DNA of 24,191 nt, taken from a virus. Every line of letters begins with the position of its first letter. Within the stretch, counting starts at the first letter, position 1. Below are positions 1,135 through 23,886 of this stretch, piece by piece. Below the pieces are notes generated by a model, which searched no databases, was not told where the DNA came from, and worked only from the letters and a program-made list of their open reading frames with translations. Location: positions 1 through 24,191 of the IMG/VR virus record IMGVR_UViG_3300020141_000786. The stretch is one strand, 5' to 3'. Both the position numbers and the translations under genes were made by a program.

Positions 1135-1142
1135 TATTTATT
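1135..1142 (-). promoter_or_regulatory. T4-type late promoter-like element (AATAAATA)
   Basis: Read leftward this is AATAAATA, one mismatch from the T4 late consensus TATAAATA. It ends 7 nt before the ATG at 1127, so transcription would begin within or next to the start codon region. It resembles the elements at 7331 and 10717. Confidence 0.5.
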
Positions 1143-2946: not shown

Positions 2947-3552
2947 ATGCCTAGTGTATTTTTAGTTAGCGATACGCACTTTGGTCATACAGGTGTTTGC
3001 CGCTTCACTCGTAACGATGGTATTACAAAATTACGGCCATGGGATAGTCCTGAAGAAATGGACGAAGCTATGGTTAAAGCATGGAACGAACGTGTTAAAC
3101 CCACTGACAAGGTCTATCATTTAGGCGATGTTGTTATTAACCGTAAGGCATTAAAGACATTAGCTCGCTTAAACGGCGACAAGGTTTTAATCCGCGGAAA
3201 CCACGACATCTTCCGTGATGACGAGTATAGGACTTACTTCCGTGAGTTACGTGCCTACCATGTTATGAACGGAATGATCTTAAGCCACATCCCGTTACAC
3301 AGTGACAGTTTAGGTCGTTTTGGTGTTAACATTCACGGACATACTCATGCAAATCGTGTGAAAAAGGCTCGTGGTGTTGATGCCAGGACTGGTGAAGTTT
3401 TATACAGCGATGAAAACGATGTTCGTTACCATTGTGTTTGTGTGGAACAAACTCCAGACTTTGCGCCTATCTTATTCGAAGACGTTGTTGCACGGATCGA
3501 AGCAGAGGGTGGAAGTATTGGATTTAAGTCTGGCAACGGCCCAACAATGTAA
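2947..3552 (+). CDS. Calcineurin-like metallophosphoesterase
   Basis: All metal-binding motifs of the calcineurin-like phosphoesterase fold are present in order: SDTHFGH (D9, H11), LGDV (D61), GNHD (N85, H86, D87), SHIP (H114) and GHTH (H132, H134). These enzymes use two metal ions to hydrolyse phosphomono- or diesters of nucleotides, nucleic acids or proteins. The 201-aa length suits a single-domain enzyme. AAGGAGG (2935-2941) lies 5 nt before the ATG. The gene is followed at once by a polynucleotide-kinase-like gene whose Shine-Dalgarno sequence overlaps this gene's stop, so the two are co-expressed. Kinase and metallophosphoesterase domains are also paired in bacterial Pnkp RNA-repair enzymes, which hints at nucleic-acid end processing; this is inference. 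Confidence 0.93.
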   Translation: MPSVFLVSDTHFGHTGVCRFTRNDGITKLRPWDSPEEMDEAMVKAWNERVKPTDKVYHLGDVVINRKALKTLARLNGDKVLIRGNHDIFRDDEYRTYFRELRAYHVMNGMILSHIPLHSDSLGRFGVNIHGHTHANRVKKARGVDARTGEVLYSDENDVRYHCVCVEQTPDFAPILFEDVVARIEAEGGSIGFKSGNGPTM

Positions 3553-4033: not shown

Positions 4034-4060
4034 ATAGGGCTCTAAGAGCCCTATTTTTTT
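4034..4060 (+). terminator. Rho-independent terminator
   Basis: A 9-bp perfect stem ATAGGGCTC / GAGCCCTAT (4034-4042, 4046-4054) has a TAA loop and is followed by a run of Ts to 4060. It ends the operon that begins at the promoter at 2681 and separates it from the late gene at 4119. Confidence 0.93.
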
Positions 4061-4084
4061 GACTTGTGCTTCTCTGTATTCGTG

Positions 4085-4092
4085 TATAAATA
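4085..4092 (+). promoter_or_regulatory. T4-type late promoter (TATAAATA)
   Basis: An exact match to the T4 late promoter consensus TATAAATA, 26 nt before the ATG of a structural gene that has its own GGAG site. It implies a gp55-like late sigma factor in this phage. Confidence 0.85.
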
Positions 4093-4118
4093 CACTATAG
4101 AATATTGGAGATAGCACG

Positions 4119-5147
4119 ATGTCGCTAAGAATTAGAAGAGGATTAAATAGTCAACGAAGCTCTGTCCTTTTAGACACGGGCGAAATTGCATGGGCAACCG
4201 ATACAAAAAAGCTGTATGTTGGAGACGGTAGTACCAGTGGCGGCGTTCATGTACTTGCAACTAGTGTGGACGAAACATCCGGACTTGCTTGGGACAGTAC
4301 TACACAAAAAATTAAATATACCGGTGCTTTAGGTACTGCGTTATCTAACATAGTTGAAGATCTTAGCCCAGAGCTGGGTGGTAATTTAAATTTAAATAAT
4401 AGAACAATTAACGGTACTGGCACTATTAATTTCACCGGCGGAATTACAGCATCAACACTAAGCCTTGCTACTGGTTTAAGTGCTAGTTTGTCGTTGAACA
4501 ATCAAAATATTACTGGAACTGGTAATATTGGTATCACTGGTAATCTATCTGCTACTGGTACAATATCTACTACAACTGGTTTAGGTGCAAATTTAGCATT
4601 AAACAATTATAATATTAATGGTTTTGGTAATATTAATATTGTCGGATTCTTGGCTGCAACTGGGCCAGTTACTGTAGGAAACACAATTACTGACGGTACG
4701 TTGAATATTTATAATCAACAAAGTTCGTATTGCGTATTCAATTCACTTGCTGGCGCTAATACAGCATTTATGGAGATGCAAGTTTCCAACGGGACATTTG
4801 CTACTCCTACTCCGGTAACACAAAACGACTTGATGGGCGGGATAATTTTTCGAGGCTACGTTACAGGCGGAACGTTTGAACGAGCTGTTGTTATAGGATC
4901 CCAAGCAGATGGAAACGTGGTAAACGGCCAGGTTCCTGGTAAGTTCTTGGTAGTAACTACTAATGCGGCTGGTGCTGGCTTCAATACATTATCTTTTGAT
5001 AAGAACGGAGTGTTGTCCACTCCAATACTGCAAGTTGCAAATGTTTCTGGAACATTACCTACATCTCCAGCAATAGGTATGATTGTACTAGATGGCACAA
5101 TATTTAAAGGATACACGAGTGCAGGCTGGGTAGATTTAAATGTTTAA
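4119..5147 (+). CDS. Tail-fibre/adhesin-like structural protein with repeats
   Basis: This 342-aa virion-type protein starts with RIRRGLNSQRSS..DTGEIAWATDTKKLYVGDGST (residues 4-39), the short N-terminal module found at the start of many phage fibre and receptor-binding proteins (compare the Mtd N-terminal domain: 'GEIGYETDTGKLKIGDGTT'). Residues about 90-185 hold three degenerate repeats of 34-35 aa, each with LxLNN..I.G.G.I.I.G, a glycine-, asparagine- and threonine-rich beta-structure expected of trimeric fibres. The C-terminal part (LPTSPAIGMIVLDGTIFKGYTSAGWVDL) resembles short fibre-tip ends. It has a perfect late promoter and GGAG (4107-4110) 8 nt before the ATG. Its stop overlaps the convergent gene at 5144 by 4 bp. 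It is the only clear structural gene in the window and a possible target of the neighbouring modification enzymes (inference). Confidence 0.87.
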   Translation: MSLRIRRGLNSQRSSVLLDTGEIAWATDTKKLYVGDGSTSGGVHVLATSVDETSGLAWDSTTQKIKYTGALGTALSNIVEDLSPELGGNLNLNNRTINGTGTINFTGGITASTLSLATGLSASLSLNNQNITGTGNIGITGNLSATGTISTTTGLGANLALNNYNINGFGNINIVGFLAATGPVTVGNTITDGTLNIYNQQSSYCVFNSLAGANTAFMEMQVSNGTFATPTPVTQNDLMGGIIFRGYVTGGTFERAVVIGSQADGNVVNGQVPGKFLVVTTNAAGAGFNTLSFDKNGVLSTPILQVANVSGTLPTSPAIGMIVLDGTIFKGYTSAGWVDLNV

Positions 5148-5701: not shown

Positions 5702-6605
5702 TTTCCAAATACCTTAATAAAGGTGCAACACCTAAAATCTTTCCGTCTTTAGTAGCCATATGTATTGTATCGCTAGGTGTCAATCCAAAATCATTACATA
5801 TCTTAAAATATTTGTCACCGTGAATTTTCCATAAATGATCAGTTTCTAATTGTTGTAAGAAATAATTTCCTATTACAACTGAGTAAGTGTTTATTTGTGC
5901 AAAGTCGTTTAGTACTGTAATAGAATCTTCCTGTATATCTTTAGTCCATCGTAATCCTATTCTGTTCCATGCACTTAGCCCGTAACCCTTGCTCATACTT
6001 ACAGAGAAGCTTTTAATAGCAGGATGTGACAAATCTATATTGATATTCCTAGCTGCGGTTATCCATGCACCATCGATGTGTACAGGACTATTAATTTCTA
6101 AACACTTATCTAAAATGAGTTGCATCTCAGGATGTGTTTTACCTAATGCGCAGAACGGAAGAGAAATGATTAAATGCTTATTAGCTTCTAAAGTATCTAA
6201 GGTTTTAGGAACTAATGTTGGGTTGAGTCTCTTGTGATAGTTGTATTCATATTCTAATATCTGTACATCATGTTTGATATGTAAGTTATCTATATACTGA
6301 GCACATCCTAGACATATATCTGTCCTAGCAAAAGAATCAAATCCTGTGATATTATTAAGTATTGAATTTTCTAAATGGGATTGAAATCTTCTTTTAAAAT
6401 TTGCAAATATTGGCCTTAGCAAGGTATTATCAACACCTGTAGCATGGTAAGACTCATCAAAGAATGTCCAATCATCGTAAGGTACTGATTTATTGACAAC
6501 TTGCAGCATCAACTTTTCTTGCTCATTGTCAATAAACGGCCTACATTTTTCTATCTCAAGATACTCTACAGAATATGATACCGGACGAACAAATATATTA
6601 TGCAT
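5694..6605 (-). CDS. PLP-dependent aminotransferase-like protein (fold type I)
   Basis: This 303-aa protein contains the core signatures of fold-type I pyridoxal-phosphate enzymes: SPVHIDGAWI (D178, the Asp that contacts the PLP nitrogen) followed 28 residues later by SVSMSKGYG (K206, the Schiff-base lysine) and NRIGLRW (R215). An ICLGCAQYIDN segment near 97-107 sits where the family's cofactor phosphate loop is expected. At about 300 aa it is shorter than typical aminotransferases (roughly 350-450), and both termini look divergent. Likely chemistry is amino-group transfer or another PLP reaction on an amino acid or amino sugar; the substrate is unknown. It is the middle gene of the leftward block, with 8-bp overlaps on both sides (ATGCATAA upstream). 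Confidence 0.82.
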   Translation of the reverse strand: MHNIFVRPVSYSVEYLEIEKCRPFIDNEQEKLMLQVVNKSVPYDDWTFFDESYHATGVDNTLLRPIFANFKRRFQSHLENSILNNITGFDSFARTDICLGCAQYIDNLHIKHDVQILEYEYNYHKRLNPTLVPKTLDTLEANKHLIISLPFCALGKTHPEMQLILDKCLEINSPVHIDGAWITAARNINIDLSHPAIKSFSVSMSKGYGLSAWNRIGLRWTKDIQEDSITVLNDFAQINTYSVVIGNYFLQQLETDHLWKIHGDKYFKICNDFGLTPSDTIHMATKDGKILGVAPLLRYLENV

Positions 6606-7326
6606 AGATTTTGTTTTTAAAATCTGCTACAAACTTACCTTCAATTTTAATAGTCAACGATGCTCTATCATATGCTTCGGTATTACCATGCCAATTATAA
6701 TGATTAAATGTAGCACTGTATCCTTTTACAGGATGCACTTGCAAAATATGTCCAGCTGAATCTAAATCGTACAAATTAAATTCTCTTTCTAAATCAAATC
6801 TAAACCAAATCAAGTCCTGTACAGTATCAGGCACATCCGGCTTATCTCCAGTTTCTATAGGAAAGTAATTGTAATCTCTGTGATACTTTAAAGGACAATA
6901 GTGGTCGTTATAAAAAAATGACACCATATCAATAGAGTCAAACGGCAGGCTTTTAACCCAATCTTTAATAGTAGGAGTGACCCAATCTTGTAAGTCTTGT
7001 TGATATTCAGATAAATGCAGTATCTTATACGGATTAAAAGATCCATATTTTAATTGTAAATATTTGGCAAGTCCTTGCCGGTCATTCTCAAACTTGCCAA
7101 TCTTAGGATCATTAGATTTATGAAACGTGTGATACAATAATGGATTGTCGTTCAAATACGGCCAGGGCGAATTAATAGGAATTCCGCCTGAATTCCAAAC
7201 ATCTTTAGTACGTTTAAGATTACTGGCGAATAAAAAATAAAAGTCGTCCTGCAGGCCTAGAAACTTATCAATATCTAAGTACGTATCTAAGGTATGTGAA
7301 GCGTGTCCGTTGCTAAGTAATATCAT
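6598..7326 (-). CDS. 2-oxoglutarate/Fe(II)-dependent hydroxylase-like protein A
   Basis: This 242-aa protein has an iron-binding triad typical of the double-stranded beta-helix oxygenases: YHRDYN (H149, D151) and HYNWHGN (H213), followed by R221 and a closing strand SLTIKIEGKF. It is clearly paralogous to the protein at 15831-16610, which ends SFSIRVDGTFTDDFRNKI against SLTIKIEGKFVADFKNKI here. Such enzymes hydroxylate protein side chains or small molecules using 2-oxoglutarate and O2; the aspartyl/asparaginyl-hydroxylase branch is the nearest fit. I chose the ATG at 7326 because a perfect late promoter TATAAATA ends 4 nt upstream; the frame stays open further upstream but crosses the divergent gene. 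No Shine-Dalgarno sequence is present. It is the first gene of the block 7326-5144. Confidence 0.85.
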   Translation of the reverse strand: MILLSNGHASHTLDTYLDIDKFLGLQDDFYFLFASNLKRTKDVWNSGGIPINSPWPYLNDNPLLYHTFHKSNDPKIGKFENDRQGLAKYLQLKYGSFNPYKILHLSEYQQDLQDWVTPTIKDWVKSLPFDSIDMVSFFYNDHYCPLKYHRDYNYFPIETGDKPDVPDTVQDLIWFRFDLEREFNLYDLDSAGHILQVHPVKGYSATFNHYNWHGNTEAYDRASLTIKIEGKFVADFKNKIYA

Positions 7327-7330
7327 ACGA

Positions 7331-7338
7331 TATTTATA
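7331..7338 (-). promoter_or_regulatory. T4-type late promoter (TATAAATA), 4 nt from start codon
   Basis: Read leftward this is exactly TATAAATA, then TCGT, then the ATG at 7326. T4 late transcripts begin a few bases after the element, so the mRNA would begin at or beside the AUG. The whole divergent spacer (7327-7350) is only 24 bp. Confidence 0.75.
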
Positions 7339-7350
7339 GCACTGGTAAAC

Positions 7351-8031
7351 ATGAAGAAAATTATACAACCAACTACATGGTTTGCAAGCGGAATTCCAAA
7401 TGCTAATCTTGTAGCACCTTGGCAACCACCAAACTTAAATACAAATATAATGTATCCAGACGAAACTGGCACTATACAATACGTGTTGAATTCAAAAGGT
7501 TACAGAGATGTCGAATGGCTTAGTATGGACGGCATGTGGTGTGTAGGACATAGTGATGTCTTCGGCATAGGTGTTAGTGTTGAACAAACTTGGCCTAGAT
7601 TAATAGGCGGCATGAATTTGGGAATTGCTGGGGCAAGTTGGGACACTATTTCTCGTACCATCTGCGCAGGATTATCAGTACATACTCCGTCATGCATTAT
7701 TATCCAGTCAACAACTAAAGAACGCAAAGAGTTTATTTCAAACAGTAAATGCCAAGTTGTTCTTCCTAATATGCCTACTGAGTTATTGCCACATAAGGAA
7801 ATTTGGAAATACAGCGACGACACAAGTGAACAATACTCTTATGAGAAAAACTTAGCTTTGATTATATCAGTTTGCCGTGCAAATAATATTAAACTCATTA
7901 TGTTTGAATTAGAAGATAGATGGGAAAGTATTCGACAAGACCCTGCGGTAGATAATCAACATATTGGCCCAGCCACTCATTTTAAGATAGCTCAGTACCT
8001 TAAACAACAATTACTTGATAATGAGAAATAG
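7351..8031 (+). CDS. SGNH/GDSL-hydrolase-like protein
   Basis: This 226-aa protein has NSKGYRDVE (47-55), then CVGHSDVFGIGV (nucleophile block, S68), EQTWPRLIGG, NLGIAGASWDTI (Gly and Asn blocks) and a C-terminal DNQHIGP (D201, H204), giving an intact Ser and DxxH. It is a relative of the proteins at 405-1127 and 22094-22876, which share NSxGYRxxE. SGNH enzymes remove or transfer acyl groups, for example acetyl groups on glycans. The ATG at 7351 has no clear Shine-Dalgarno sequence and no recognisable rightward promoter in the 24-bp divergent spacer, so its expression is unexplained. It overlaps the next SGNH gene by 11 bp. There is no signal peptide, so it should act in the infected cell or as part of a complex. 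Confidence 0.87.
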   Translation: MKKIIQPTTWFASGIPNANLVAPWQPPNLNTNIMYPDETGTIQYVLNSKGYRDVEWLSMDGMWCVGHSDVFGIGVSVEQTWPRLIGGMNLGIAGASWDTISRTICAGLSVHTPSCIIIQSTTKERKEFISNSKCQVVLPNMPTELLPHKEIWKYSDDTSEQYSYEKNLALIISVCRANNIKLIMFELEDRWESIRQDPAVDNQHIGPATHFKIAQYLKQQLLDNEK

Positions 8032-8653
8032 ACTTGTAACATTTGGATGCTCTTATACGTTTGGCCAAGGATTACCAGATTGCCAGTCAACCAATGTGTT
8101 AATATTCACCTTTGATAGTTCTAAACCAAGCAAACTAGGATGGCCGCAACAAGTAGCAGACAATTTAGGATTAGAACTAGTTAACAAGTCACAGCCCGGT
8201 GTAAGTAACTTAGAAATTTTATATTCTATATTAGAATTTAAATTTGAAGAAACCGATACAGTTGTTATTATGTGGTCTCATTCTTTAAGAGATATGTTTA
8301 TCAAAACAACATTTAATATGTTTCCTTCTCGTAAAATGTTAGGAGTTTGGAAAACATCAAGTACTGCTTTGAAATGGACTGCACAATTAAGCGAGCACGA
8401 TTATGCCATGCGAACTTGGATATACATGCATCATGCCGGCCTATACCTTGACCAGAACAAAATAAAATTTATCCACTATCCGGCCACGATGCAAGAGTTG
8501 AATAAATTTAGGATGCCTAATTTAGCAATTAATAATCTATATACATCTGGCATTATACATTTAGATCAGTGTATAGGAGACACACATCCTGGCCCAAAAT
8601 CAAACGAGGCTACTGCAAATATTATTACCGGAATACTACAGCAGGTGGGCTAG
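8021..8653 (+). CDS. SGNH-hydrolase-like protein, short form
   Basis: This 210-aa protein begins MRNRLVTFGCSYTFGQGLP: the GCSYTFG block with S11 as nucleophile lies right at the N terminus, without the NSxGYR extension of its neighbour. A later NKSQPGVSNLEI segment fits the Gly/Asn blocks, and DTHPGP (H189) near the C terminus supplies the catalytic His. The ATG at 8021 overlaps the upstream gene; a TTG at 8015 is in frame but two codons earlier only. It ends at 8653, 18 bp inside the convergent radical-SAM gene that ends at 8636. It is tandem with a second, different SGNH gene, so the two may act on the same product. Confidence 0.85.
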   Translation: MRNRLVTFGCSYTFGQGLPDCQSTNVLIFTFDSSKPSKLGWPQQVADNLGLELVNKSQPGVSNLEILYSILEFKFEETDTVVIMWSHSLRDMFIKTTFNMFPSRKMLGVWKTSSTALKWTAQLSEHDYAMRTWIYMHHAGLYLDQNKIKFIHYPATMQELNKFRMPNLAINNLYTSGIIHLDQCIGDTHPGPKSNEATANIITGILQQVG

Positions 8654-10048
8654 TTCGGGAAAAACACTGGTGAATTCTATATTGCGTAATGGTTGTAACT
8701 TTTCAATATATTCTTTGAACGCCGGTAACAAATCCGTGTGGTCTTCTGCATCCATAAAGTCTAACACTGCTTGCCAACGTTTCCATCCATACGGATTATT
8801 TTTCCAAAAGTCGGCATCTTGCCTGTAGTTATCATACAGCCATATTTTTAGTTCGGCAAACGTCTTTCTTACTTCTAGTTTGTCTGTAGCTGGTAAACAT
8901 CTAATGCTTAAAAATGTAGGTATATATAACAAGTGCATATTAAAAATACCACCACCTGCTTGTATATCACCAGTAACATTACCAAAGTTAATCTTTTTAA
9001 AATTTTGTTGGACTTTCCATTTAGCAAAATCTGCTAAATGTTTGATATTTAAAATTTGTATGGCAGTGGCAATACTAGTTTGGATATTATCAGGTGTATT
9101 ATCTAGTCTGTGTAAATTTTTTACTACAGTGGCCCACTCACTAGGATAGCGTATGTAGTAATTTTTATCTCCAATAGCATCAATACTAAATCCCACTTTA
9201 ACTTTTTTAAACTTACTCCATAATTCAATAATGTTATCGTCTATTAAGAGTCCGTTAGTGTTGTAACGTATAAGAATTTTGTCTGCGTACCCTTGACGAA
9301 TGATTTCTTCAAGGAACATTTTATGCTCTTTAATCATGAGCGGCTCGCCACCAGCAAAGTATACTTGTTTTAAATTAGGAATTTGTGCATACATTTCTTT
9401 CCAAAAGTCTGGATTTTCGTGCCACTTATTATTGAATTCTTTACGGTCCCATTGCATCTGAGATTTTAGTTCAGGTGCTTTAAATAGAGGATAAATCTTT
9501 TTATGATCTGCTACCCACTTACTGCTGTCGTGTGGGCTGCACATAACGCACTTTAAGTTACAAGTATGTCCAAGTCGAAGATCAAGATAGACTAACTGTT
9601 CAGGAATAGTTCCATCTTCTTGCGTTTGACGGATTAGTTCTTCTAAATCAATTCCTTCTTCGTGCCATGTTGCAGTTTCCCATATACGTTTACTAGCAAC
9701 ACCTTTGCTTTCTTCATCGTAACATTTTTTACAACTTGCTGGAATTTTTCCTTCTAACATAGTTGTTCTAACATCGCGCATATATTCATTATTCCATGCA
9801 CTCATTGGAGTTTCACGGCCAAAATTAGCAGGCTCGCCTTTTTCATTTTTAACTAATCCTACAGTGTGGTTTTCACCAGCACCACTAGCATTAGCACTAC
9901 AGCATAATCTCATATCGCCGTTAGGCCTAGTAGCAAAGTGTATCCATGGCAACACGCAGAATGTACTGCTCTTAGTTAAAGTTTCTATTTTTTTCTGCCA
10001 AAATCCAATTTTGGTATCTTCAGGTTGAATCCAAAATGTTTTAAACAT
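8636..10048 (-). CDS. Radical SAM enzyme with N-terminal Twitch/SPASM-like domain
   Basis: This 470-aa protein starts with an auxiliary-cluster-type region, FCVLPWIHFATRPNGDMRLCC (C31, C49, C50), then CKKC (C106, C109). The radical-SAM domain follows: CNLKCVMC (C163, C167, C170) binding the [4Fe-4S] cluster that cleaves S-adenosylmethionine, and FAGGEPL (GGEP 233-236) contacting the methionine. This order, with the extra cluster domain before the radical-SAM barrel, is that of 'twitch domain-containing radical SAM proteins', often found in aquatic phages and in peptide- or sugar-modification loci. It is paralogous to the gene at 11416. Its start overlaps the upstream oxygenase gene by 8 bp (ATGTTTAA). 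Its 3' end overlaps the convergent SGNH gene by 18 bp. The substrate is unknown. Confidence 0.92.
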   Translation of the reverse strand: MFKTFWIQPEDTKIGFWQKKIETLTKSSTFCVLPWIHFATRPNGDMRLCCSANASGAGENHTVGLVKNEKGEPANFGRETPMSAWNNEYMRDVRTTMLEGKIPASCKKCYDEESKGVASKRIWETATWHEEGIDLEELIRQTQEDGTIPEQLVYLDLRLGHTCNLKCVMCSPHDSSKWVADHKKIYPLFKAPELKSQMQWDRKEFNNKWHENPDFWKEMYAQIPNLKQVYFAGGEPLMIKEHKMFLEEIIRQGYADKILIRYNTNGLLIDDNIIELWSKFKKVKVGFSIDAIGDKNYYIRYPSEWATVVKNLHRLDNTPDNIQTSIATAIQILNIKHLADFAKWKVQQNFKKINFGNVTGDIQAGGGIFNMHLLYIPTFLSIRCLPATDKLEVRKTFAELKIWLYDNYRQDADFWKNNPYGWKRWQAVLDFMDAEDHTDLLPAFKEYIEKLQPLRNIEFTSVFPELAHLL

Positions 10049-10712
10049 ATGTTACCTTAAATTCAGATGTGATGAGTTGTTTAAATTCTTCAAGTAATTC
10101 GCATTCTAATTTAAATGATAAACTAAATGTACTATGTAAAAAATCTGCTAGTTTGTATCGCTGATTTGCACGATTTAAAAAAGGACTAAAGATTTTATCA
10201 AACTTGTATCTAAAGTCGTGTTGTTCATACGCAGGCTCCATAGCAATGCTAACTAAATCAATTGGTTGCCGACTATTACGTAATGGCTCGCGTACCACTA
10301 ATTGTAGTCGTGGAATAGATCCGTAGTTAGTAGCCGCATGTATACGACTAGCATCCATATAAGCCCACCGATTGTCCCCGACACATTCGTGCATAACTTT
10401 GTTATCCAAATCAACCAAGTATGCTTGCTCGCCAGTCAAGTTCAAGTGCCAGCGGTTGTCTATGTCAGCATGAGCCATATAACTTTCACCTGGCGCTAGT
10501 TTAATAATACGTGCTTGCCCAATGGACATAGGCAGTGTGTCTAATACTTGTTGCCAAATTGTATCTTTATACGAGTCTTTAATCTTCCACATATCGTAGA
10601 AGAAGTCACCTGTCGGCTCGTTAAGTACAGTACCTTCGCCCGTAACTGGATGCTCTTTAAGTGCTTGTTCAATCAGTCCTTCCGGACACACCCATATTTG
10701 TTTGGTAATCAT
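10041..10712 (-). CDS. 2-oxoglutarate/Fe(II) oxygenase-like protein B (AspH-like)
   Basis: This 223-aa protein has the motif series of aspartyl/asparaginyl beta-hydroxylase-like proteins: IIKLAPGESYMAHADIDNRW (H81, D83), a DLDNKVMHECVGDNRWAYMDAS strand pair, RIHAATN (H125) and PRLQLVVRE (R135), an HxD...H...R set for iron and 2-oxoglutarate. A helical C-terminal extension of about 80 aa follows. Likely chemistry is hydroxylation of an amino-acid side chain. I chose the ATG at 10712 over an in-frame ATG at 10736 because a perfect TATAAATA late element ends 4 nt before 10712 and would lie inside the coding region of the longer form. There is no Shine-Dalgarno sequence. It leads the two-gene leftward block with the radical-SAM gene at 8636. 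Confidence 0.87.
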   Translation of the reverse strand: MITKQIWVCPEGLIEQALKEHPVTGEGTVLNEPTGDFFYDMWKIKDSYKDTIWQQVLDTLPMSIGQARIIKLAPGESYMAHADIDNRWHLNLTGEQAYLVDLDNKVMHECVGDNRWAYMDASRIHAATNYGSIPRLQLVVREPLRNSRQPIDLVSIAMEPAYEQHDFRYKFDKIFSPFLNRANQRYKLADFLHSTFSLSFKLECELLEEFKQLITSEFKVTYV

Positions 10713-10716
10713 GAAA

Positions 10717-10724
10717 TATTTATA
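10717..10724 (-). promoter_or_regulatory. T4-type late promoter (TATAAATA), 4 nt from start codon
   Basis: Read leftward: TATAAATA, TTTC, ATG (10712). This is the same 4-nt spacing as at 7331. It lies in a 39-bp divergent spacer shared with the gene at 10752. Confidence 0.75.
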
Positions 10725-10739
10725 TGTTGTTATCACTTG

Positions 10740-10747
10740 CTTAAATA
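10740..10747 (+). promoter_or_regulatory. Weak late-promoter-like element (CTTAAATA)
   Basis: CTTAAATA matches the last six bases of TATAAATA and ends exactly 4 nt (TATC) before the ATG at 10752, mirroring the leftward element of the same divergent spacer. The fit is only 6 of 8, so it is a suggestion. Confidence 0.4.
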
Positions 10748-10751
10748 TATC

Positions 10752-11432
10752 ATGGAACTGTATTTAAAACATAATTGGAAGAGAATTGGCATAAGCATAA
10801 GCGGCGGCGCCGATAGTGCATTACTAGCATACTTAATATGTTCAAATACAGACGCAGATATACATTTTACAAATCAAATTAGGCTTTGGAAAACACGCCC
10901 GTGGCAAGAACATGTAGCTGACACAATTATTGCTTGGTTTAAGGATCACTTTAAAAATAACTTTTATCTACATAGAAATTTAATTCCGCCAGAATTAGAA
11001 TGGGCCGACAAAGGGCCAACTATCGTAGATGAGTACGGAAAATTAAAAAGCGGCAATCAAATTATACTAAGATCACACAATGAGTATATTGCTCACAAGT
11101 ACAAACTAGATGCATTGTACGGAGGCATTAACAAGAACCCAGATATTGAGATAGAAGGATCATTAGCTGATCGAGATACTGGACACATACCCCCTCATTT
11201 TATACACAACGGTGTTGATATTTGTCATCCATTCGTGTATACTAAGAAAGATTGGATTATTAAACAATATTTTGAAAATGGTATAGAAGAATTGTTAAAT
11301 TTAACTCGTAGTTGTGAAGGCGAATTTAAAGATATAGATTATACTACATACACCACGGGGCAATACGTTCCTGTGTGTGAACAATGTTTCTGGTGCAAGG
11401 AAAGAGAGTGGGCAATTGAACAAACAAAGTAA
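10752..11432 (+). CDS. QueC-like PP-loop ATPase
   Basis: This 226-aa protein contains the PP-loop pyrophosphatase motif SISGGADS (17-22 core) of N-type ATP-using enzymes, and a C-terminal four-cysteine set: SCEG (C188) and CEQCFWCKERE (C209, C212, C215). An SGGxDS loop plus Cys-x2-Cys-x2-Cys close to the C terminus is the arrangement of QueC (7-cyano-7-deazaguanine synthase), which adenylates a carboxylate and turns it into a nitrile. No QueD, QueE or FolE partner is recognisable, although one of the many radical-SAM genes could be mistaken, so a different adenylation or amidation reaction is equally possible. I chose the ATG at 10752; the frame is open upstream but covers the divergent gene. 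It leads the rightward block ending at 15825, with three radical-SAM genes following. Confidence 0.83.
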   Translation: MELYLKHNWKRIGISISGGADSALLAYLICSNTDADIHFTNQIRLWKTRPWQEHVADTIIAWFKDHFKNNFYLHRNLIPPELEWADKGPTIVDEYGKLKSGNQIILRSHNEYIAHKYKLDALYGGINKNPDIEIEGSLADRDTGHIPPHFIHNGVDICHPFVYTKKDWIIKQYFENGIEELLNLTRSCEGEFKDIDYTTYTTGQYVPVCEQCFWCKEREWAIEQTK

Positions 11433-12681
11433 AACATTTTGTATGCATCCTTTTACAGGATTGGCTACACGCGAAGATGGTGCAATTAAAGTTTGCTGCC
11501 GAAGCCTGCCTATTGGTTGGATTCAGGAAGAGAGTTTAGAGAATGTTTGGAATGGTGACAATATGCGAGAAGTACGGACGCAAGTTTTAAACGACCAAAG
11601 ACCGCTTGTTTGTATGCCATGTTTTGATTTAGAAGATCAAGGCGTAGAAAGTTTGCGTCAAAGACATATCAAAAATTCTATCCCAGAAAGCCGTATCAAT
11701 CTTTACCCTAATGCACTTGATACATTAACTGACAACTACACAATGCCTTTTGAATTTCCTACTATGGAAATTAAACTTAATAATTTATGTAATTTACGTT
11801 GCCGTATGTGCAATCCGTTAGACAGTACCAATTGGAGTGATTGGGGTGAAGTAGTTCCTTTTTACAAAAAAGAAAATAACTATCTTGTGCCTACAGTGGA
11901 AAAACTAGTAAAACATCCAGGGCAATATATTGGGTCGTTCGACGATACTGATAATTGGTGGTCTAGTTTTGAAAAATTGTTGCCGCACTTTAGACGTGTG
12001 GAATTTGCTGGCGGTGAGCCATTAATGGATCCGCAACACTATAAGATTTTAGATATGCTCAAACCCTACGGCAAGAACATAGAAATTAAATATGCTACAA
12101 ATGGTACAACATTAGGAATCAGTAAAGGAAGAACTATTCACGACTATTGGCCACATTTTAGAAGCGTTGCCGTTAATATCAGCATTGACGGTATTAACGA
12201 TGTCTATAATTATATTCGCAGTAACGGCGACTTTAGCCAACTTGAAAGGAATATTAAAGAGATTCAATCTATTCCAAATGTAAGCCGAGTAGTAGGTGCA
12301 TTTACAGCACAAGCTGGTAATATTCTTCAGGCTGCGGAGTGCGTTGATTATTTTATCAACAAGCTAGGCATTATATTCTACAGTCATCGAGTTAGTTACC
12401 CTAATTGTTTGTCCGCACAAGTATTACCACAGGAACTGAAAGATTTAGCAATAAAGAGATTGCAAGAAGTGAAGGCCCGTGTAGATACGTTTGAAGCTGT
12501 TAAACAAAATGCACTATTAGGTAAAGTTACGCATCAGCAAATACAAGATAATATTAACTATTTGTGGGCAGCTGACCAAGAAGATTTATGGAGAGACTTT
12601 GTCGAGTTTAATCAAAAGTTAGATGTTGGCCGCAAGCAAAGTTTAGTAGATACAGTTCCAGAGTTTAAACCATATGTATGA
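11416..12681 (+). CDS. Radical SAM enzyme with N-terminal Twitch/SPASM-like domain, TTG start
   Basis: This 421-aa protein is paralogous to the one at 8636. It has FCMHPFTGLATREDGAIKVCC (C9, C27, C28), CMPC (C66, C69), the radical-SAM motif CNLRCRMC (C125, C129, C132) and FAGGEPLM (GGEP 199-202). The start is uncertain. TTG at 11416 gives an N terminus (MNKQSKTFC) that keeps the first cluster cysteine and follows GGAAAGAGAG. ATG at 11377 lies deeper in the upstream gene, and ATG at 11443 would lose C9. The gene overlaps the PP-loop gene by 17 bp and the next radical-SAM gene by 8 bp (ATGTATGA). Presumably it binds two [4Fe-4S]-type clusters and acts by abstracting H from its substrate. Confidence 0.88.
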   Translation: MNKQSKTFCMHPFTGLATREDGAIKVCCRSLPIGWIQEESLENVWNGDNMREVRTQVLNDQRPLVCMPCFDLEDQGVESLRQRHIKNSIPESRINLYPNALDTLTDNYTMPFEFPTMEIKLNNLCNLRCRMCNPLDSTNWSDWGEVVPFYKKENNYLVPTVEKLVKHPGQYIGSFDDTDNWWSSFEKLLPHFRRVEFAGGEPLMDPQHYKILDMLKPYGKNIEIKYATNGTTLGISKGRTIHDYWPHFRSVAVNISIDGINDVYNYIRSNGDFSQLERNIKEIQSIPNVSRVVGAFTAQAGNILQAAECVDYFINKLGIIFYSHRVSYPNCLSAQVLPQELKDLAIKRLQEVKARVDTFEAVKQNALLGKVTHQQIQDNINYLWAADQEDLWRDFVEFNQKLDVGRKQSLVDTVPEFKPYV

Positions 12682-13654
12682 ATTAGCAAACATTCGAGAT
12701 ATTCATTTGGAATTAACTAGTAAGTGCCAAGCCCGATGTCCAATGTGCCCACGGCGTATTAGCGGCGGCATACTTAATCCGTTAATAACATTAAACGAAA
12801 TAACATTAAGCCAATTTAAAAAATGGTTCTCCGTTGAATTTATACAGCAGTTAGATAGCTTGTTTATATGCGGCAACTTAGGCGATCCTATTATAGCACA
12901 AGATTGTTTAAAGATACTCCAATACATCAAGGAAACAAATCCTGCAATACAACTGAGTATGCACACCAACGGTAGTGCTAAAAATACACATTGGTGGGAA
13001 CAATTGGCCTACACCAAAACTAGGGTTGTATTTGGCATCGATGGTCTTGCAGACACTCACGCACTTTATAGAGTGGGTACAGACTATAATAAAATTATAG
13101 AAAATGCATCAGCTTTCATACAGGCCGGCGGCGATGCGGAATGGCATATGCTAGCGTTCGAGCATAACGAACACCAAATTATAGAATGCCAAACTATTAG
13201 CAAACATCTTAAATTTAAAAAATTTACAGTTAAACATACTAGTCGGTTTACCAGCGATAAGTGGCATGTTATAAATGATGAAGGCAAAACAACACACATT
13301 TTACGACCTACTCGAATCAGTCAAGATATGATATCCAAAGTTAAAGCGTCAACGACTGTAGTTTCAGAAATACAATGTAAGGCTGTAAAGTATAAACAAC
13401 TATATATTGCAGCTGATGGGTCTATTAGTCCTTGTTGCTGGTTAGACGTTAGTTGGATGCTGCCAACGCATGGCTCTCGCATTGATTATATGGATACCAT
13501 TGGACACTTTCCTAATCTAAATAAAAATACAATAGAGGAAATATTCGAGTCCGGACACTTTAAACAAATAGAAGATACATGGAATATCAAACCGCTAGTC
13601 GAATGCAGTAAGCAGTGTGGCAAGTTTGATAAATCAGGAGCACAGTTTGTCTAA
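12674..13654 (+). CDS. Radical SAM/SPASM-like enzyme (LGDP type)
   Basis: This 326-aa protein has CQARCPMC (C18, C22, C25) for the SAM-cleaving cluster. At the GGEP position it has ICGNLGDP (LGDP 69-72), and GIDGLADTH follows. The C-terminal domain has C235, then CC at 254-255 in DGSISPCCWL, and C311/C315, an SPASM-like auxiliary-cluster pattern. The closest relative in the window is 18849-19901, which shares LGDP, IDGLADT, FxHNEHQ and the C-x18-CC ... C-x3-C spacing. SPASM enzymes modify peptides or sugars. It starts within the previous gene's stop (8-bp overlap) and overlaps the next gene by 8 bp (TTGTCTAA), so the three radical-SAM genes in a row are translationally coupled. Confidence 0.92.
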   Translation: MYELANIRDIHLELTSKCQARCPMCPRRISGGILNPLITLNEITLSQFKKWFSVEFIQQLDSLFICGNLGDPIIAQDCLKILQYIKETNPAIQLSMHTNGSAKNTHWWEQLAYTKTRVVFGIDGLADTHALYRVGTDYNKIIENASAFIQAGGDAEWHMLAFEHNEHQIIECQTISKHLKFKKFTVKHTSRFTSDKWHVINDEGKTTHILRPTRISQDMISKVKASTTVVSEIQCKAVKYKQLYIAADGSISPCCWLDVSWMLPTHGSRIDYMDTIGHFPNLNKNTIEEIFESGHFKQIEDTWNIKPLVECSKQCGKFDKSGAQFV

Positions 13655-14534
13655 AGTAACTAGTCGTTGGCCGCATCAGGGCAGTATTAAAGTGGAATGG
13701 AATCTCGGCAAACGCTGCAACTATGACTGTAGTTATTGCCCGTCTAGTATTCACGACAGCACAAGCCCGCATACTGATATAGAAATACTAAAAGCAACTG
13801 TAGACAAACTAGTAACATTAGGCAAACCTATACGACTTAGTTTCACGGGCGGAGAGCCTTGTGTACATCCTAAGTTTGCAGAACTTATCACATATTGTAA
13901 TTACAAAGGAATTAGTTGGATTAGTGTAACAACTAACGGAACATTGCCATACGAATTTTATGCTAGTTTGAATGTTGATCAGTTTGTGTTTAGCCTGCAC
14001 TTAGAATACAATTGGCAACGTGTTTACAACACTATGAGCAAAGTTGCTGATCGCACTAATCTTAGACTTGTGGCACAAATTATGTGCCATCACGATCATA
14101 TGACTTCGGCTATGACTATTTTTGCTAGATGCCTTACAGATCATATACCAGCAACCTTAAGGCGTATACGCTGGACCGAAGGAGATCACGATTTGTTTGA
14201 TGATATGCGATATCATCCAGACGATTTAAATTGGATTAAGAAACAAGAATCCACTGTACAAGGAAATTGCGTAATAGATGATACACAAATAATTCATGCA
14301 AACGATGTGATTAAATTGCATTTAAATAAATTCAAAGACTGGACTTGTAATGCAGGCATCGAAAGCCTGATGATTAATTGGGATGGTGATGTTCACAGAG
14401 CAACTTGTCGTGTAGGAGGAAGTTTAGGTAATATATATAACGGCACCTTTTTGCAACCTGTTGAGGCTATTACTTGTGATAGGAACTTTTGCACATGCGC
14501 TGCCGATATACCGTTAACAAAATATAAAATATGA
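13647..14534 (+). CDS. Radical SAM enzyme with C-terminal Cys array, TTG start
   Basis: This 295-aa protein has CNYDCSYC (C24, C28, C31), FTGGEP (GGEP 68-71) and VTTNGT as the third strand. Its C-terminal array C234-x19-C254 ... C277-x4-C282-x-C284 suggests one or two auxiliary clusters. The genes at 21044 and 22878 share CNxxCxYC and the same C-terminal arrangement, so these three form a subfamily. I chose TTG at 13647 because AGGAG (13636-13640) lies 6 nt upstream; GTG 13617 and TTG 13626 are in frame but have no such site. It starts inside the stop region of the preceding radical-SAM gene and is followed by an oxygenase-like gene (ATGA overlap). The substrate is unknown. Confidence 0.9.
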   Translation: MSKVTSRWPHQGSIKVEWNLGKRCNYDCSYCPSSIHDSTSPHTDIEILKATVDKLVTLGKPIRLSFTGGEPCVHPKFAELITYCNYKGISWISVTTNGTLPYEFYASLNVDQFVFSLHLEYNWQRVYNTMSKVADRTNLRLVAQIMCHHDHMTSAMTIFARCLTDHIPATLRRIRWTEGDHDLFDDMRYHPDDLNWIKKQESTVQGNCVIDDTQIIHANDVIKLHLNKFKDWTCNAGIESLMINWDGDVHRATCRVGGSLGNIYNGTFLQPVEAITCDRNFCTCAADIPLTKYKI

Positions 14535-15001
14535 AATTCTTAAAAAACATTCAAATAGATCAACGTGCATTAGATTTCATGATTAAAAACACCGGTTCAA
14601 AACGTCCTATATTACCACCTGCAAATTATCAAAAAGAAACATATGAAAAATGGATTGCTGCCGGGTGCGATATTAATCGTTTATATTGGGAATCATTTAG
14701 TAGCGACAACTTTCCTTTTACAGTTGATTTGCCCTTTGTTGGAAATTGGTGGTTCAGCAAGTTATTACCTGGCAGCGTATTTCCATACCATCAAGATATA
14801 TATTCAAGTCTTGAACCTAAGAGCAGATTGTGGATTGCATATCAGGATTACCAACCTGGCCACCTGTTTTCGTACGGTGATAAAGTGCTAACCGATTACA
14901 AAAAAGGCGATGTTTTTGAATTTGATGATACTGCAATTTTCCACGGTGCCGCAAATTGCAGTCTTATACCTAAAATTAGTTTGCAGGTAGTTATTATATG
15001 A
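14531..15001 (+). CDS. 2-oxoglutarate/Fe(II) oxygenase-like protein C
   Basis: This 156-aa protein is compact and cupin-like: WWFSKLLPGSVFPYHQDIY (H87, D89), LWIAYQDYQPGHLFSYGD, KKGDVFEFDDTAIFHGAANC (H138) and PKISLQVVI (K148). HxD...H is intact; the basic residue that would bind 2-oxoglutarate is Lys instead of the usual Arg, as in some known members of the superfamily. The prediction is a small hydroxylase acting in the cytoplasm. It begins within the stop of the upstream radical-SAM gene (ATGA) and overlaps the next SGNH gene in the same way, suggesting coupled production of all three. Confidence 0.83.
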   Translation: MKFLKNIQIDQRALDFMIKNTGSKRPILPPANYQKETYEKWIAAGCDINRLYWESFSSDNFPFTVDLPFVGNWWFSKLLPGSVFPYHQDIYSSLEPKSRLWIAYQDYQPGHLFSYGDKVLTDYKKGDVFEFDDTAIFHGAANCSLIPKISLQVVII

Positions 15002-15825
15002 AAATACAGAATCTTGACCCAACAAAATATAAAAGATTTTTTGCGTTTGGATGTAGTTTTACTAACTACAACTGGCCTACTTGGGCAGACATTATAGGTA
15101 AAGATATTGAAGTATATGCAAATTGGGGCAAGCAAGCCGCCGGCAACTATTTTATATTTAACAGTGTCATGGAAGCCGATGCACGTTATAATTTTACCAA
15201 AGATGATTTAGTAATTATTTTCTGGACTATCAAAGAACGAGAAGACAGATATTCTGGTAACGAATGGGTACACTTTTCTCCTTACAATATTGAGGCAAAT
15301 TATGGTAAAGAGTGGACCGAAAAGTATTATTTTGATAATCGACATTATTTAATGCGTGACCTTACTTTAATTAAAGCAACCCAGGATATTTTAAAAACTA
15401 AAGAGTGTGACTGGGCGAATTTATCATGGGGAGAATTTTTACACAGCGACGAACTAAAACCCAAATATGATATTGCTAATAAATCTCAAAAAATAACAAT
15501 GATGAAAGAATGGAGAGCTCAGTGTAAAAATATATATAAAGGCGGAGAAATTCCAAAATATATTGACAACAATGATATAATAACATTATACCAATCAATT
15601 TTTAATGATTTTAGTGGCGTGTATAAATGGTTTCGCACAGAATGTCTAGATGAAGACCGGCGTGTTTCTCCAGGAAATGATTTACATCCTATGCCAAGTG
15701 AAGCACTGATGTTTCTAGATTGGGTATGGCCTGATAATTTATTAAGTAGTAAAGCTAGAAACTATGCTAATAACTGGGTTCATTCGGGCCACGCAATGCC
15801 ACGGCCAACAGTGATTAGGTTATAG
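14998..15825 (+). CDS. SGNH-hydrolase-like protein with insertions
   Basis: This 275-aa protein has FFAFGCSFTNYNWP (S20 nucleophile block), DDLVIIFWTIKEREDRY (a strand equivalent to the other SGNH proteins' VIIMW/VLVGW), and DLHPMPSEALMF near the C terminus (D228, H230). A large middle region (about residues 85-215) is helix-rich and aromatic, probably a lid or substrate domain. It starts in the stop of the upstream gene (ATGA) and ends the rightward block, 5 bp before the convergent stop at 15831. It is the most divergent of the five SGNH-like proteins in the window. There is no signal peptide. Confidence 0.83.
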   Translation: MKIQNLDPTKYKRFFAFGCSFTNYNWPTWADIIGKDIEVYANWGKQAAGNYFIFNSVMEADARYNFTKDDLVIIFWTIKEREDRYSGNEWVHFSPYNIEANYGKEWTEKYYFDNRHYLMRDLTLIKATQDILKTKECDWANLSWGEFLHSDELKPKYDIANKSQKITMMKEWRAQCKNIYKGGEIPKYIDNNDIITLYQSIFNDFSGVYKWFRTECLDEDRRVSPGNDLHPMPSEALMFLDWVWPDNLLSSKARNYANNWVHSGHAMPRPTVIRL

Positions 15826-15839
15826 TATTATTAATAACC
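15818..15839. repeat. Weak hairpin across the convergent junction
   Basis: GGTTAT (15818-15823) and ATAACC (15834-15839) can form a 6-bp stem spanning both stop codons. There is no strong GC content or T-tract, so it is at best a weak bidirectional terminator. Confidence 0.3.
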
Positions 15840-16610
15840 AGCTAAGTGACCTATACCAATTTTATTACGGAAATCATCAGTAAATGTTCCGTCAACTCGG
15901 ATACTGAATGATTGTACAATTGCCCTGCCACCGTTATGCCAATCTTGATCATTAAAGAACAATGCGTGTGATGTGGTCTCAACTTTGTTATCAGTATCAG
16001 GATCCCATATATAAAATGGCTTGCTTATTTCAGTACGCAAGTGTATAAATTCGTGACGATGATCAAAGTATGTAGTTTCTTCAGGATATATTAAATCTCG
16101 ATGCATAGCAGTTAATCCGTCATGTTCTGCTTTAAAGATAATAATGCGTCCTAAATGTGTAAAGACGCTAGGAACTAATTTTTCTAACCATTGTTTTAAT
16201 TCAGGAAAAAATCTTGCATCTGAAGTCCATGCCTTTTCTTCAAACCTAGTTTCCCAACCACCTTCTTCTGTTTTAAGAAAAATAAACTGATACGGATCGT
16301 ATGCACCTAATGCTAATTTTAGATACAATACAAACTGATCTCTGTTTTTCCATTCGCCTATTTCTCGGCCCGCTATTCTGATTTCGTGGTCTTCGGGAAG
16401 TGCAAAGTATTCATCTACTGCTTGGAATGTTGGTTTGATTGTAAGTTTGTATGCATTGTCAAATCCGCCAGGCCGCACAACATTACCTTCTTTCTTATTT
16501 TCTGACAACACTATACCTTTGCATATTCTGTAATGCAGTTTTTTCAAACCTTCAATATCTAAAAACGGATCAAGGTTAATGTATGGTTGAGAATTTATTC
16601 CGCGGATCAT
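15831..16610 (-). CDS. 2-oxoglutarate/Fe(II)-dependent hydroxylase-like protein D (paralogue of A)
   Basis: This 259-aa protein has AMHRDLIYP (H170, D172), FFNDQDWHNGG (H225) and SFSIRVDGTFTDDFRNKI at the end, with R229/R238 as candidates for binding 2-oxoglutarate. The C-terminal strand and DFRNKI tail match the protein at 6598-7326, making them paralogues; the N-terminal halves are more divergent. It is a single-gene leftward unit. The ATG at 16610 has no Shine-Dalgarno sequence; AATAAATA read leftward (16644-16637) lies 26 nt upstream, the same spacing as for the tail-fibre-like gene. It stops 5 bp from the convergent SGNH gene. Likely chemistry is side-chain hydroxylation. Confidence 0.85.
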   Translation of the reverse strand: MIRGINSQPYINLDPFLDIEGLKKLHYRICKGIVLSENKKEGNVVRPGGFDNAYKLTIKPTFQAVDEYFALPEDHEIRIAGREIGEWKNRDQFVLYLKLALGAYDPYQFIFLKTEEGGWETRFEEKAWTSDARFFPELKQWLEKLVPSVFTHLGRIIIFKAEHDGLTAMHRDLIYPEETTYFDHRHEFIHLRTEISKPFYIWDPDTDNKVETTSHALFFNDQDWHNGGRAIVQSFSIRVDGTFTDDFRNKIGIGHLAGY

Positions 16611-16636
16611 AATAAAGGATAACTAGTATATAATAA

Positions 16637-16644
16637 TATTTATT
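16637..16644 (-). promoter_or_regulatory. Late-promoter-like element (AATAAATA)
   Basis: Read leftward this is AATAAATA, 26 nt before the ATG at 16610. This matches the 26-nt spacing from TATAAATA to the ATG at 4119. One mismatch to the T4 late consensus. Confidence 0.5.
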
Positions 16645-16653
16645 TGAAAATCT

Positions 16654-17331
16654 ATGACAAACCTTGCAAAGTGGGATCTTTATTACAACTTAGAAGGCGA
16701 CCAACCGGTCCGAGCTAATTTAGTGTACACACCTTACATCAGTCCAGATCAAAAGACTATTTGTATGAGCTTTAATCGAGATATTGCATATCACAAATAT
16801 CCTGAAGAAAATGTTATGTGGACCGAAGAGCTTCTTTCAGACAGATTTAATAAAGAATTAGAATTTCATAAACTGGCTAGTATGACAATGCCAACACTTA
16901 GACTATTGGATGCAGACACTACTAAACGAGAAGTTTACTTTGAATGGCACGGTGCTGACTTCTTTATGCAAGGATTAGCAGCTGGCGGCTATGATAATGT
17001 ACTACCCGACTGGCAAGAACAATGGTTGTCGTTAATTGAAAAAATGTGGGCAGCAAATATTTACAAAATTAGCTTACATCCAAACAGCTGGATTGCACAT
17101 GACGGCAAACTCATTCCGTTTAACTGGTTCTTTTGCTATCATAAAAATAGCAGTCCTGTTACTGTACAATCATTACTTCTGCAAATTAGTTCAGGCCGGC
17201 AAGAGAAGTTAGCAGGTATCGAATTGGAAACTCCATTCACTCCTATTCAGTTACAGACTATTGCATTTAACAGCTTCAGGCAAAATTATCCTAAAGAACT
17301 AATAGAGAAATCAGTATGCCGTATAACGTAA
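16654..17331 (+). CDS. Degenerate kinase-like protein (putative)
   Basis: This 225-aa protein is not firmly recognised. Parts look like a shortened aminoglycoside-phosphotransferase/protein-kinase-like fold: RFNKELEFHKLASMTMPTLRLLDAD (a helix then strands, as around the kinase Glu), VYFEWHGADF (hinge-like), and YKISLHPNSWIAHDGKLIPFNWFF (137-160), which resembles the 'HxDxxxxN ... DW' catalytic and metal loops but lacks both aspartates (PFNW where DW is usual). If the fold is right it would be a pseudokinase, perhaps binding a substrate or nucleotide. It leads the rightward block to 20464. A TATAAT (16629-16634) lies upstream with no good -35 box, and no Shine-Dalgarno sequence is evident. It overlaps the next gene by 16 bp. 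Confidence 0.78.
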   Translation: MTNLAKWDLYYNLEGDQPVRANLVYTPYISPDQKTICMSFNRDIAYHKYPEENVMWTEELLSDRFNKELEFHKLASMTMPTLRLLDADTTKREVYFEWHGADFFMQGLAAGGYDNVLPDWQEQWLSLIEKMWAANIYKISLHPNSWIAHDGKLIPFNWFFCYHKNSSPVTVQSLLLQISSGRQEKLAGIELETPFTPIQLQTIAFNSFRQNYPKELIEKSVCRIT

Positions 17332-18845: not shown

Positions 18846-18848
18846 GGA

Positions 18849-19901: not shown

Positions 19902-20464
19902 TGTCTGCAATACATTTACCCAAACACAATTTAACATTTATACACATTCCTAAAAATGCAGGATCAAGTGTTGTTGATTGGTTATTGAATAACTTTCAAA
20001 CTGATATAATTAATGGCCATCCAAATTTGAATATGATCAAATGTCATTGGGATGTCAAAGAGACATTCTCCATTGTGCGTAATCCATGGGCTAGAATGGT
20101 AAGTGCATACTTCTATTTAAAACAGTATGGATTTTATTGGGAAGATAATAATATAAAATCTATAGATGATTTTCCAACATGGGATTCATTTATTGATAGA
20201 TTAGATTATGATACTAAAAGTTGGAACTCATTAAGTACTAATCAGTGCGAATGGATTCATCCTGGCGTTGACTATTTGTTAAAGGCAGAAACTCTTACAG
20301 AAGACTTCAAACTAATACAAAGTTTGTTAGGATGCAGTGAGCCACTGCCATTTATCAATACGTCAACACACGACAACTATAAGTTATATTACACAGATAT
20401 GCAAAAAAATAAAATAGCAAGTATCTTCAATCGAGACATCGAATTATACAAATATTTGTTCTAA
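19901..20464 (+). CDS. Sulfotransferase family protein
   Basis: This 187-aa protein has both PAPS-binding signatures of sulfotransferases: FIHIPKNAGSSV (residues 13-24, the 5'-phosphosulfate loop) and FSIVRNPWARMVSAYFYL (57-73, the 3'-phosphate motif with R60 and S68). Short, carbohydrate-type sulfotransferases of this form move sulfate from PAPS to a sugar hydroxyl or a tyrosine. It lies last in the rightward block from 16654, with AAGG 7 nt before its ATG, which overlaps the upstream stop. Its own stop overlaps the convergent methyltransferase stop by 4 bp. PAPS must come from the host, as no ATP sulfurylase or APS kinase is visible. Confidence 0.9.
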   Translation: MSAIHLPKHNLTFIHIPKNAGSSVVDWLLNNFQTDIINGHPNLNMIKCHWDVKETFSIVRNPWARMVSAYFYLKQYGFYWEDNNIKSIDDFPTWDSFIDRLDYDTKSWNSLSTNQCEWIHPGVDYLLKAETLTEDFKLIQSLLGCSEPLPFINTSTHDNYKLYYTDMQKNKIASIFNRDIELYKYLF

Positions 20465-22057: not shown

Positions 22058-22093
22058 TTGTTAGTTAATTCTATATGAACATTGTTTATATTC

Positions 22094-22876: not shown

Positions 22877-22877
22877 A

Positions 22878-23858: not shown

Positions 23859-23886
23859 TGACTTTATTTACGTTCGACTATATAAT
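23858..23886 (+). promoter_or_regulatory. Near-consensus sigma70 promoter (TTGACT-17-TATAAT)
   Basis: TTGACT at 23858-23863 and TATAAT at 23881-23886 are 17 bp apart. The predicted start point, about 23893, is the first base of the tRNA-like gene. The -35 box starts inside the start codon of the divergent gene that begins at 23858. Confidence 0.75.
23865..23872 (-). promoter_or_regulatory. Weak late-promoter-like element (CGTAAATA)
   Basis: Read leftward this is CGTAAATA, matching the last six bases of TATAAATA and ending 6 nt before the ATG at 23858. It resembles the short-spacing elements at 1135, 7331 and 10717, but the fit is only 6 of 8. Confidence 0.35.

Follow-up and report, generated by a model that had tools for sequence, protein, structure and literature searches.

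Late promoters of the T4 type are considered here in a 24,191-nt stretch of viral DNA (positions 1 to 24,191 of IMG/VR record IMGVR_UViG_3300020141_000786, hereafter the window) and in related phages. In the clade of the window and in the Pelagibacter myophages, a large minority of these promoters lie 4–5 nt before a start codon, and their mRNAs are very probably leaderless. Such mRNAs begin with a 5′-terminal AUG, have no leader, and mostly recruit 70S ribosomes directly (review PMC9031893). In the mechanism proposed, to which a probability of about 0.86 is assigned, the late promoters would be read by host RNA polymerase carrying a phage gp55-like late sigma factor, with the 8-bp box so positioned that the A of the AUG would be the first transcribed base. 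Late genes would then follow two designs: a box, a leader of 16–40 nt, usually with a Shine–Dalgarno (SD) sequence, and an AUG; or a box, 4–5 nt, and an AUG. The mRNA of the second design would be leader-free, and host ribosomes would begin at its 5′-terminal AUG without SD pairing. A pyrimidine at -1 and an A at +1 would help to pin the start to the A of the AUG.

A preliminary description of the window had recorded three boxes exactly 4 nt before an ATG, two weaker copies farther from theirs (ahead of 23858 and 1127), and no SD sequence at any of these starts. All three boxes and both weaker copies are present as described (Table 1), and an SD sequence is indeed lacking at the five starts.

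Spacing of the Late Promoter Box

Genes of the window match those of three metagenomic genomes of the clade, G003 (364 kb, 340 genes), G017, and G018. For instance, the phosphoesterase at 2947–3552 is 90% identical in G017 and the gene at 10041–10712 is 85% identical in G003. These genomes are therefore a fair test of the spacing. Start codons were picked by a simple coding-score gene caller, on coding score alone and blind to the motif. Gene-aware counts of the gap from TAAATA to the start replaced plain pattern counts (TAAATA-N4-ATG and the N5 form, forward versus reversed), which were too noisy in AT-rich genomes. The chance expectation for gaps of 4–6 nt, called short gaps below, was taken from a second-order Markov simulation of 300 runs.

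In G003, 6, 11, and 2 genes have the box at gaps of 4, 5, and 6 nt, none at 0–3, and four in total at 7–15; a second, broad mode at 16–38 nt (the long-gap class) is mostly accompanied by an SD sequence. The 19 short-gap genes compare with a simulated mean of 1.0 and a maximum of 5. G017 and G018, whose distributions have the same shape, contain 18 and 11 such genes and the Pelagibacter phage HTVC008M contains 10, the simulated means of the four genomes being 0.9–1.1 and the maxima 4–5. At gaps of 4–5 nt in G003, TAAATA is the top hexamer, ahead of all SD hexamers, and permuted hexamers give no comparable peak. Enrichment of the short spacing elsewhere, on which the preliminary description had staked the idea, is thus strong, sharp, and genome-wide in the relatives.

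The isolates favor a gap of 5 nt: eight of the ten short-gap genes of HTVC008M have exactly this distance, as do all five of Mosig EXVC030M. Melnitz (two genes) and P-SSM2 (three, at gap 5) gave low counts and stand outside the simulation set. When 2196 distinct starts of relatives are pooled, gaps of 4, 5, and 6 nt account for 59, 159, and 12 of them, and every other gap below 16 for 1–5; the short-gap starts span 42 protein families. A distance of exactly 4 nt therefore holds for the three window sites but not across the relatives, where it is 4–5 nt with a mode of 5. No short-gap gene was found in T4, S-PM2, Syn9, or GAP32, and only one each in PA5oct and Phosso, while all six have the long-gap class, in agreement with the earlier remark that the arrangement is unusual for T4-like phages. 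The short-gap mode is a property of the clade that is common to the Pelagibacter myophages and not a quirk of the window contig.

The window has no excess of the bare motif (94 one-mismatch matches versus 84 expected), which would fit the view that the sites are chance matches in an AT-rich genome. The probability of this explanation is virtually nil, since it is rejected by the Markov simulation in all four genomes and since AT-rich T4 and PA5oct have no short-gap excess. One exact copy of the box in the window belongs to an ordinary late promoter, in the textbook T4 order of hairpin with T-run, box, 26-nt leader with GGAG, and ATG at 4119. The window thus holds both designs next to each other, and, given the unremarkable motif count, the signal lies in the spacing and not in the number of motifs.

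At G018_223471 the box seemed to be missing, but this proved to be a start-calling error, with TAAATACTAGCATG found upstream at 223409. In several short-gap genes of G003, G017, G018, and HTVC008M exactly 8 nt separate the end of the upstream gene from the ATG; TAAATA can then supply, with its TAA, the stop codon of that gene, fusing stop and promoter.

Features of the Short-Gap Genes

An SD sequence precedes only 1 of 48 short-gap genes, versus 80 of 117 long-gap genes and 326 of 736 other genes (Fisher test, 7e-17 versus long-gap and 9e-11 versus others). All 48 short-gap starts are ATG, as are 294 of the 340 starts of G003. The base at -1 is a pyrimidine in 24/24 gap-5 starts of G003, G017, and G018, versus 56/117 long-gap starts (p 3e-7). 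In the four largest families this holds for 126/126 sequences, with 10–18 different N5 sequences per family. A pyrimidine at -1 followed by a purine at +1 is the usual bacterial initiator. The first 45 nt of short-gap open reading frames are also less structured than those of other genes (-2.6 versus -4.3 kcal/mol, p 5e-5).

It could be argued that the ATG at gap 4–5 is not the true start and that translation begins at a downstream, SD-led codon behind a normal leader, and some orthologue alignments do start 10–20 residues in. Against this, an in-frame SD-led start within 30 codons occurs in just 2% of the short-gap genes, less often than in other genes, and the alignments of terminase, tail-tube, and structural orthologues begin at residue 1 (34 of 48 short-gap orthologue pairs align from residue 1–3). 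The starts of HTVC008M are identical in the RefSeq annotation, and the spacing is tuned to the gap 4–5 ATG over many different N5 sequences. A downstream start is accordingly very improbable.

Terminase, Tail Tube, and Other Virion Genes

Terminase, tail-tube, and virion structural proteins are included in the short-gap class, at a gap of 5 nt, and the short-gap genes of HTVC008M are mostly virion genes (DNA end protector, tail tube cap, baseplate, and tail completion). The short gap of terminase, two virion structural genes, the tail tube, and others is kept across G003, G017, and G018 at protein identities of 41–91%. Upstream of terminase, 29 of 33 distinct regions have the box at gap 4–6, nearly always right behind a hairpin and T-run, and two of the four boxless regions have AAGGA before the start. 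The T-run of this intrinsic terminator ends 2–4 nt ahead of the box, which therefore leaves no space for a leader.

As a separate observation, a conserved intrinsic terminator abuts the terminase late promoter in L027 (11156–11179) and in L065–L144, with terminator, promoter, and start codon contained in ~40 nt. The tail-tube gene of G003 (33558–34652) and its G017 and G018 orthologues have a T-run just upstream, but the scan placed a hairpin on the opposite strand only, and no terminator function is claimed for it.

In PA5oct, GAP32, and Phosso, orthologues of short-gap genes often have the box at 21–32 nt, mostly together with an SD sequence. The same late genes have therefore switched between the leadered and the leaderless arrangement. 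These orthologues also bear on the idea that TAAATA near the ATG acts as an AU-rich enhancer of translation, or as the site of another regulator, and that the mRNAs start elsewhere. Ribosomal protein S1 is able to bind AU-rich leaders, which would suit such a role; nonetheless, the same box is found at promoter distance in the orthologues, the order of terminator, box, and ATG leaves no space for another transcription start, and permuted AT-rich hexamers have no comparable peak, so that this idea is barely credible.

Late Sigma Factor and Probable Position of the Transcription Start

A gp55-type late sigma factor is encoded by G003, G017, G018, HTVC008M, and Mosig. Since sigma factors of this type occur in both the leadered and the short-gap groups, the difference lies in the placement of the box and not in the kind of sigma factor. 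Downstream of long-gap boxes, the sixth nucleotide is a purine at a frequency of 0.76 in T4, 0.84 in PA5oct, 0.82 in S-PM2, 0.85 in HTVC008M, 1.0 in Syn9, and 0.93 in Melnitz. This agrees with the numbering of the first base of the T4 box as -13 (PMC2988020). If the initiating purine is the sixth nucleotide past the box, a gap of 5 nt makes the A of the AUG the +1 base.

Weighing the Leaderless Reading

Where the RNAs actually begin, and that they are translated in a leaderless mode, we infer from the spacing and the initiator signature. The leaderless late mRNAs suggested in the preliminary description find support in the spacing, the scarcity of SD sequences, the exclusive use of ATG, the pyrimidine at -1, the weak 5′ structure, the terminase terminator, and the position of +1 predicted in other T4-type phages.

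Several points weigh against this reading. The pooled counts overstate independence, because sequences inside one family are related, and per-genome and family counts are therefore given beside them. In G003, G017, and G018 the purine peak past long-gap boxes is smeared over nucleotides 5–7, which makes +1 less certain in this clade. Under the T4 rule a gap of 4 nt would put +1 on the U of the AUG, so the start would have to shift by one; the clade with the smeared peak is the one that uses gaps of 4 and 5 nt alike. Of the 59 gap-4 cases, 11 have a purine at -1. The gp55 homologue was seen in relatives, while the 24-kb window fragment contains none, and a search with T4 gp45 gave no match in three relatives, using a single T4 query without a positive control. 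Finally, many short-gap genes lie only 8–13 nt past a same-strand gene and may be read from upstream transcripts too.

The last point also speaks for compaction with translational coupling. According to this explanation, the box would simply fall in tiny intergenic gaps, the genes would be translated mainly by reinitiation on upstream polycistronic mRNA, and the missing leader would be a by-product, with no leaderless mode involved. The possible use of TAA as the upstream stop at gap 5 fits it as well, and so does the absence of an SD sequence from over half of all genes of the clade. However, the intrinsic terminator immediately ahead of the terminase box stands against coupling, and at divergent pairs there is no gene upstream from which ribosomes could reinitiate; examples are 10712/10752 in the window and 14 short-gap genes of three genomes. 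Moreover, compaction predicts neither the sharp peak at 4–5 nt, nor the pyrimidine at -1, nor the use of ATG only. Coupling is thus unlikely, although it is the most probable of the competing explanations.

Loci of the Window and Their Relatives

The features of the window are collected in Table 1; its only short gaps are those of 4 nt and a single one of 6 nt. A megablast search of the window against known phages gave no match.

Table 1. Late promoter boxes, associated signals, and genes of the window.
Feature	Position	Strand	Remarks
Late promoter box TATAAATA	7331..7338	-	Exact match; gap 4 (TCGT) to ATG 7326-7324; box to ATG, 7338-7324
Gene	6598-7326	-	ATG 7326-7324, 4 nt past box; no Pfam or PHROG match
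Late promoter box TATAAATA	10717..10724	-	Exact match; gap 4 (TTTC); TATAAATA-TTTC-ATG, 10724-10710
Gene	10041-10712	-	Weakly Asp/Arg-hydroxylase-like; heads leftward operon with radical-SAM gene 8636-10048
Late promoter box CTTAAATA	10740..10747	+	Gap 4 (TATC); divergent to the 10717 box; CTTAAATA-TATC-ATG, 10740-10754
Gene	10752-11432	+	QueC-like (phrog_1550, E 6e-7); ATG 10752, 4 nt past box
TAAATA (within GTAAATA)	23865..23870	-	Weaker; gap 6, the edge of the peak, to ATG 23858 of radical-SAM gene 22878-23858
AATAAATA	1135..1142	-	Gap 7 to ATG 1127; beyond the enriched range, membership doubtful
Ordinary late promoter TATAAATA	4085..4092	+	Exact copy; 26-nt leader; internal control
SD sequence GGAG	4107..4110	+	In the ordinary leader of gene 4119-5147
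Hairpin and T-run	4036..4061	+	Just 5′ of the ordinary late promoter; terminator judged by eye

Relatives of the gene at 6598–7326 (L021 and L022) likewise have a box at a gap of 4 nt (TAAATACTGCATG). Relatives of the gene at 10041–10712 are encoded on 18 viral contigs with divergent flanking DNA, and in 17 of them TAAATA lies 4 or 5 nt ahead of an in-frame ATG. In two (L011 and L015) the N-terminus of the protein is longer by four residues and the ATG at gap 4 is the upstream one; thus, the promoter keeps its spacing to the first ATG, wherever that may lie. In L009 the relative of this gene sits behind another coding sequence and has no box. In G018 its radical-SAM neighbor leads the operon and bears TATAAATATTTC-ATG. 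These arrangements indicate that the box and its gap are a property of the operon head and not of one particular gene.

A divergent box pair like that at 10717–10747, with the boxes facing each other, is present in most relatives, and the window pair has no space for leaders. A -35 element is not needed by T4 late promoters (PMC2988020). In L012 both halves of the ~40-bp facing pair read TATAAATATTTCATG, a nearly perfect inverted repeat that could delimit cargo operons as cassettes.

Comparison with Known Systems

The T4 late promoters, which depend on gp55, gp33, and gp45, share with the present ones the TATAAATA/NATAAATA box before virion genes, a gp55-family sigma factor (found in the relatives), and, less certainly, a start ~6 nt past the box. 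They differ in that none of the 207 called genes of T4 has the box at gap 4–6, the late genes of T4 being leadered and mostly provided with an SD sequence. The same box, NATAAATA, is used by the cyanomyoviruses S-PM2 and Syn9 (PMC2984593), but at 15–40 nt upstream and with no short-gap genes; P-SSM2, also of this group, is the one with three genes at gap 5. HTVC008M and Mosig EXVC030M have the gap-5 class with its pyrimidine at -1. Unlike the clade of the window, they use gap 5 almost solely instead of gap 4, their genomes are far smaller, and the terminase of HTVC008M is outside the class.

The order of box, short gap, and AUG is also seen in leaderless genes of Deinococcus-Thermus, where a -10 box lies a few bp before the open reading frame, and in predicted leaderless promoters of Cluster O mycobacteriophages (PMC12340547, PMC4351075). 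Those promoters are of host type (housekeeping or SigA-like), not read by a phage late sigma factor, and do not serve T4-type late genes. No description of leaderless T4-type late transcripts, in pelagimyophages or otherwise, was found in the open-access literature. The leaderless principle is therefore known, being predicted in some mycobacteriophages (PMC4351075), while its combination with T4-type late transcription seems to be new.

Late transcription in T4 is textbook knowledge, and here an aquatic phage group that includes Pelagibacter isolates appears to use the same promoter leader-free for essential virion genes. With such an arrangement, the start site of late genes of uncultured phages would become predictable to the base, and gene callers would gain a signal where SD sequences are absent. 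Methods designed for cyanophage late promoters failed on pelagimyophages in one study (PMC7029224), and the short gap may help to explain why late promoters are difficult to find in these phages. It also raises the question of how host ribosomes translate much virion mRNA without leaders.

Translation Factors and Cargo Operons

Host identification through the phage-encoded S21 gave just one distant match, in a Bacillales metagenome-assembled genome. A protein with the C-terminal domain of IF3 is encoded by Phosso, Atu_ph07, and GAP32, and none was found in the short-gap phages examined or in T4, S-PM2, and PA5oct. Phosso and GAP32 lack the short-gap class, and Atu_ph07 is outside the gap survey. 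High IF3 disfavors some leaderless mRNAs (PMC9031893). S21 is present in both groups, and the phages are too few for the IF3 and S21 comparison to be conclusive.

It is conceivable, as a rather speculative extension, that one late sigma factor serves two late translation programmes. SD-led genes would be translated alongside a leaderless set (terminase, tail tube, and cargo operons) that would follow a different initiation route, perhaps favored by late changes in initiation factors or ribosomes. The 15-bp cassette TATAAATA-TTTC-ATG might then act as a portable cap that plugs new cargo operons into late expression.

Eight radical-SAM proteins, of which several have SPASM domains, are encoded in a cargo block of the window (8636–23858), together with a sulfotransferase, a QueC-like protein, and oxygenase-like genes; the order of genes in this block is shuffled between relatives. 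In a T4-type jumbo phage, this block possibly represents a pathway for peptide or sugar modification.

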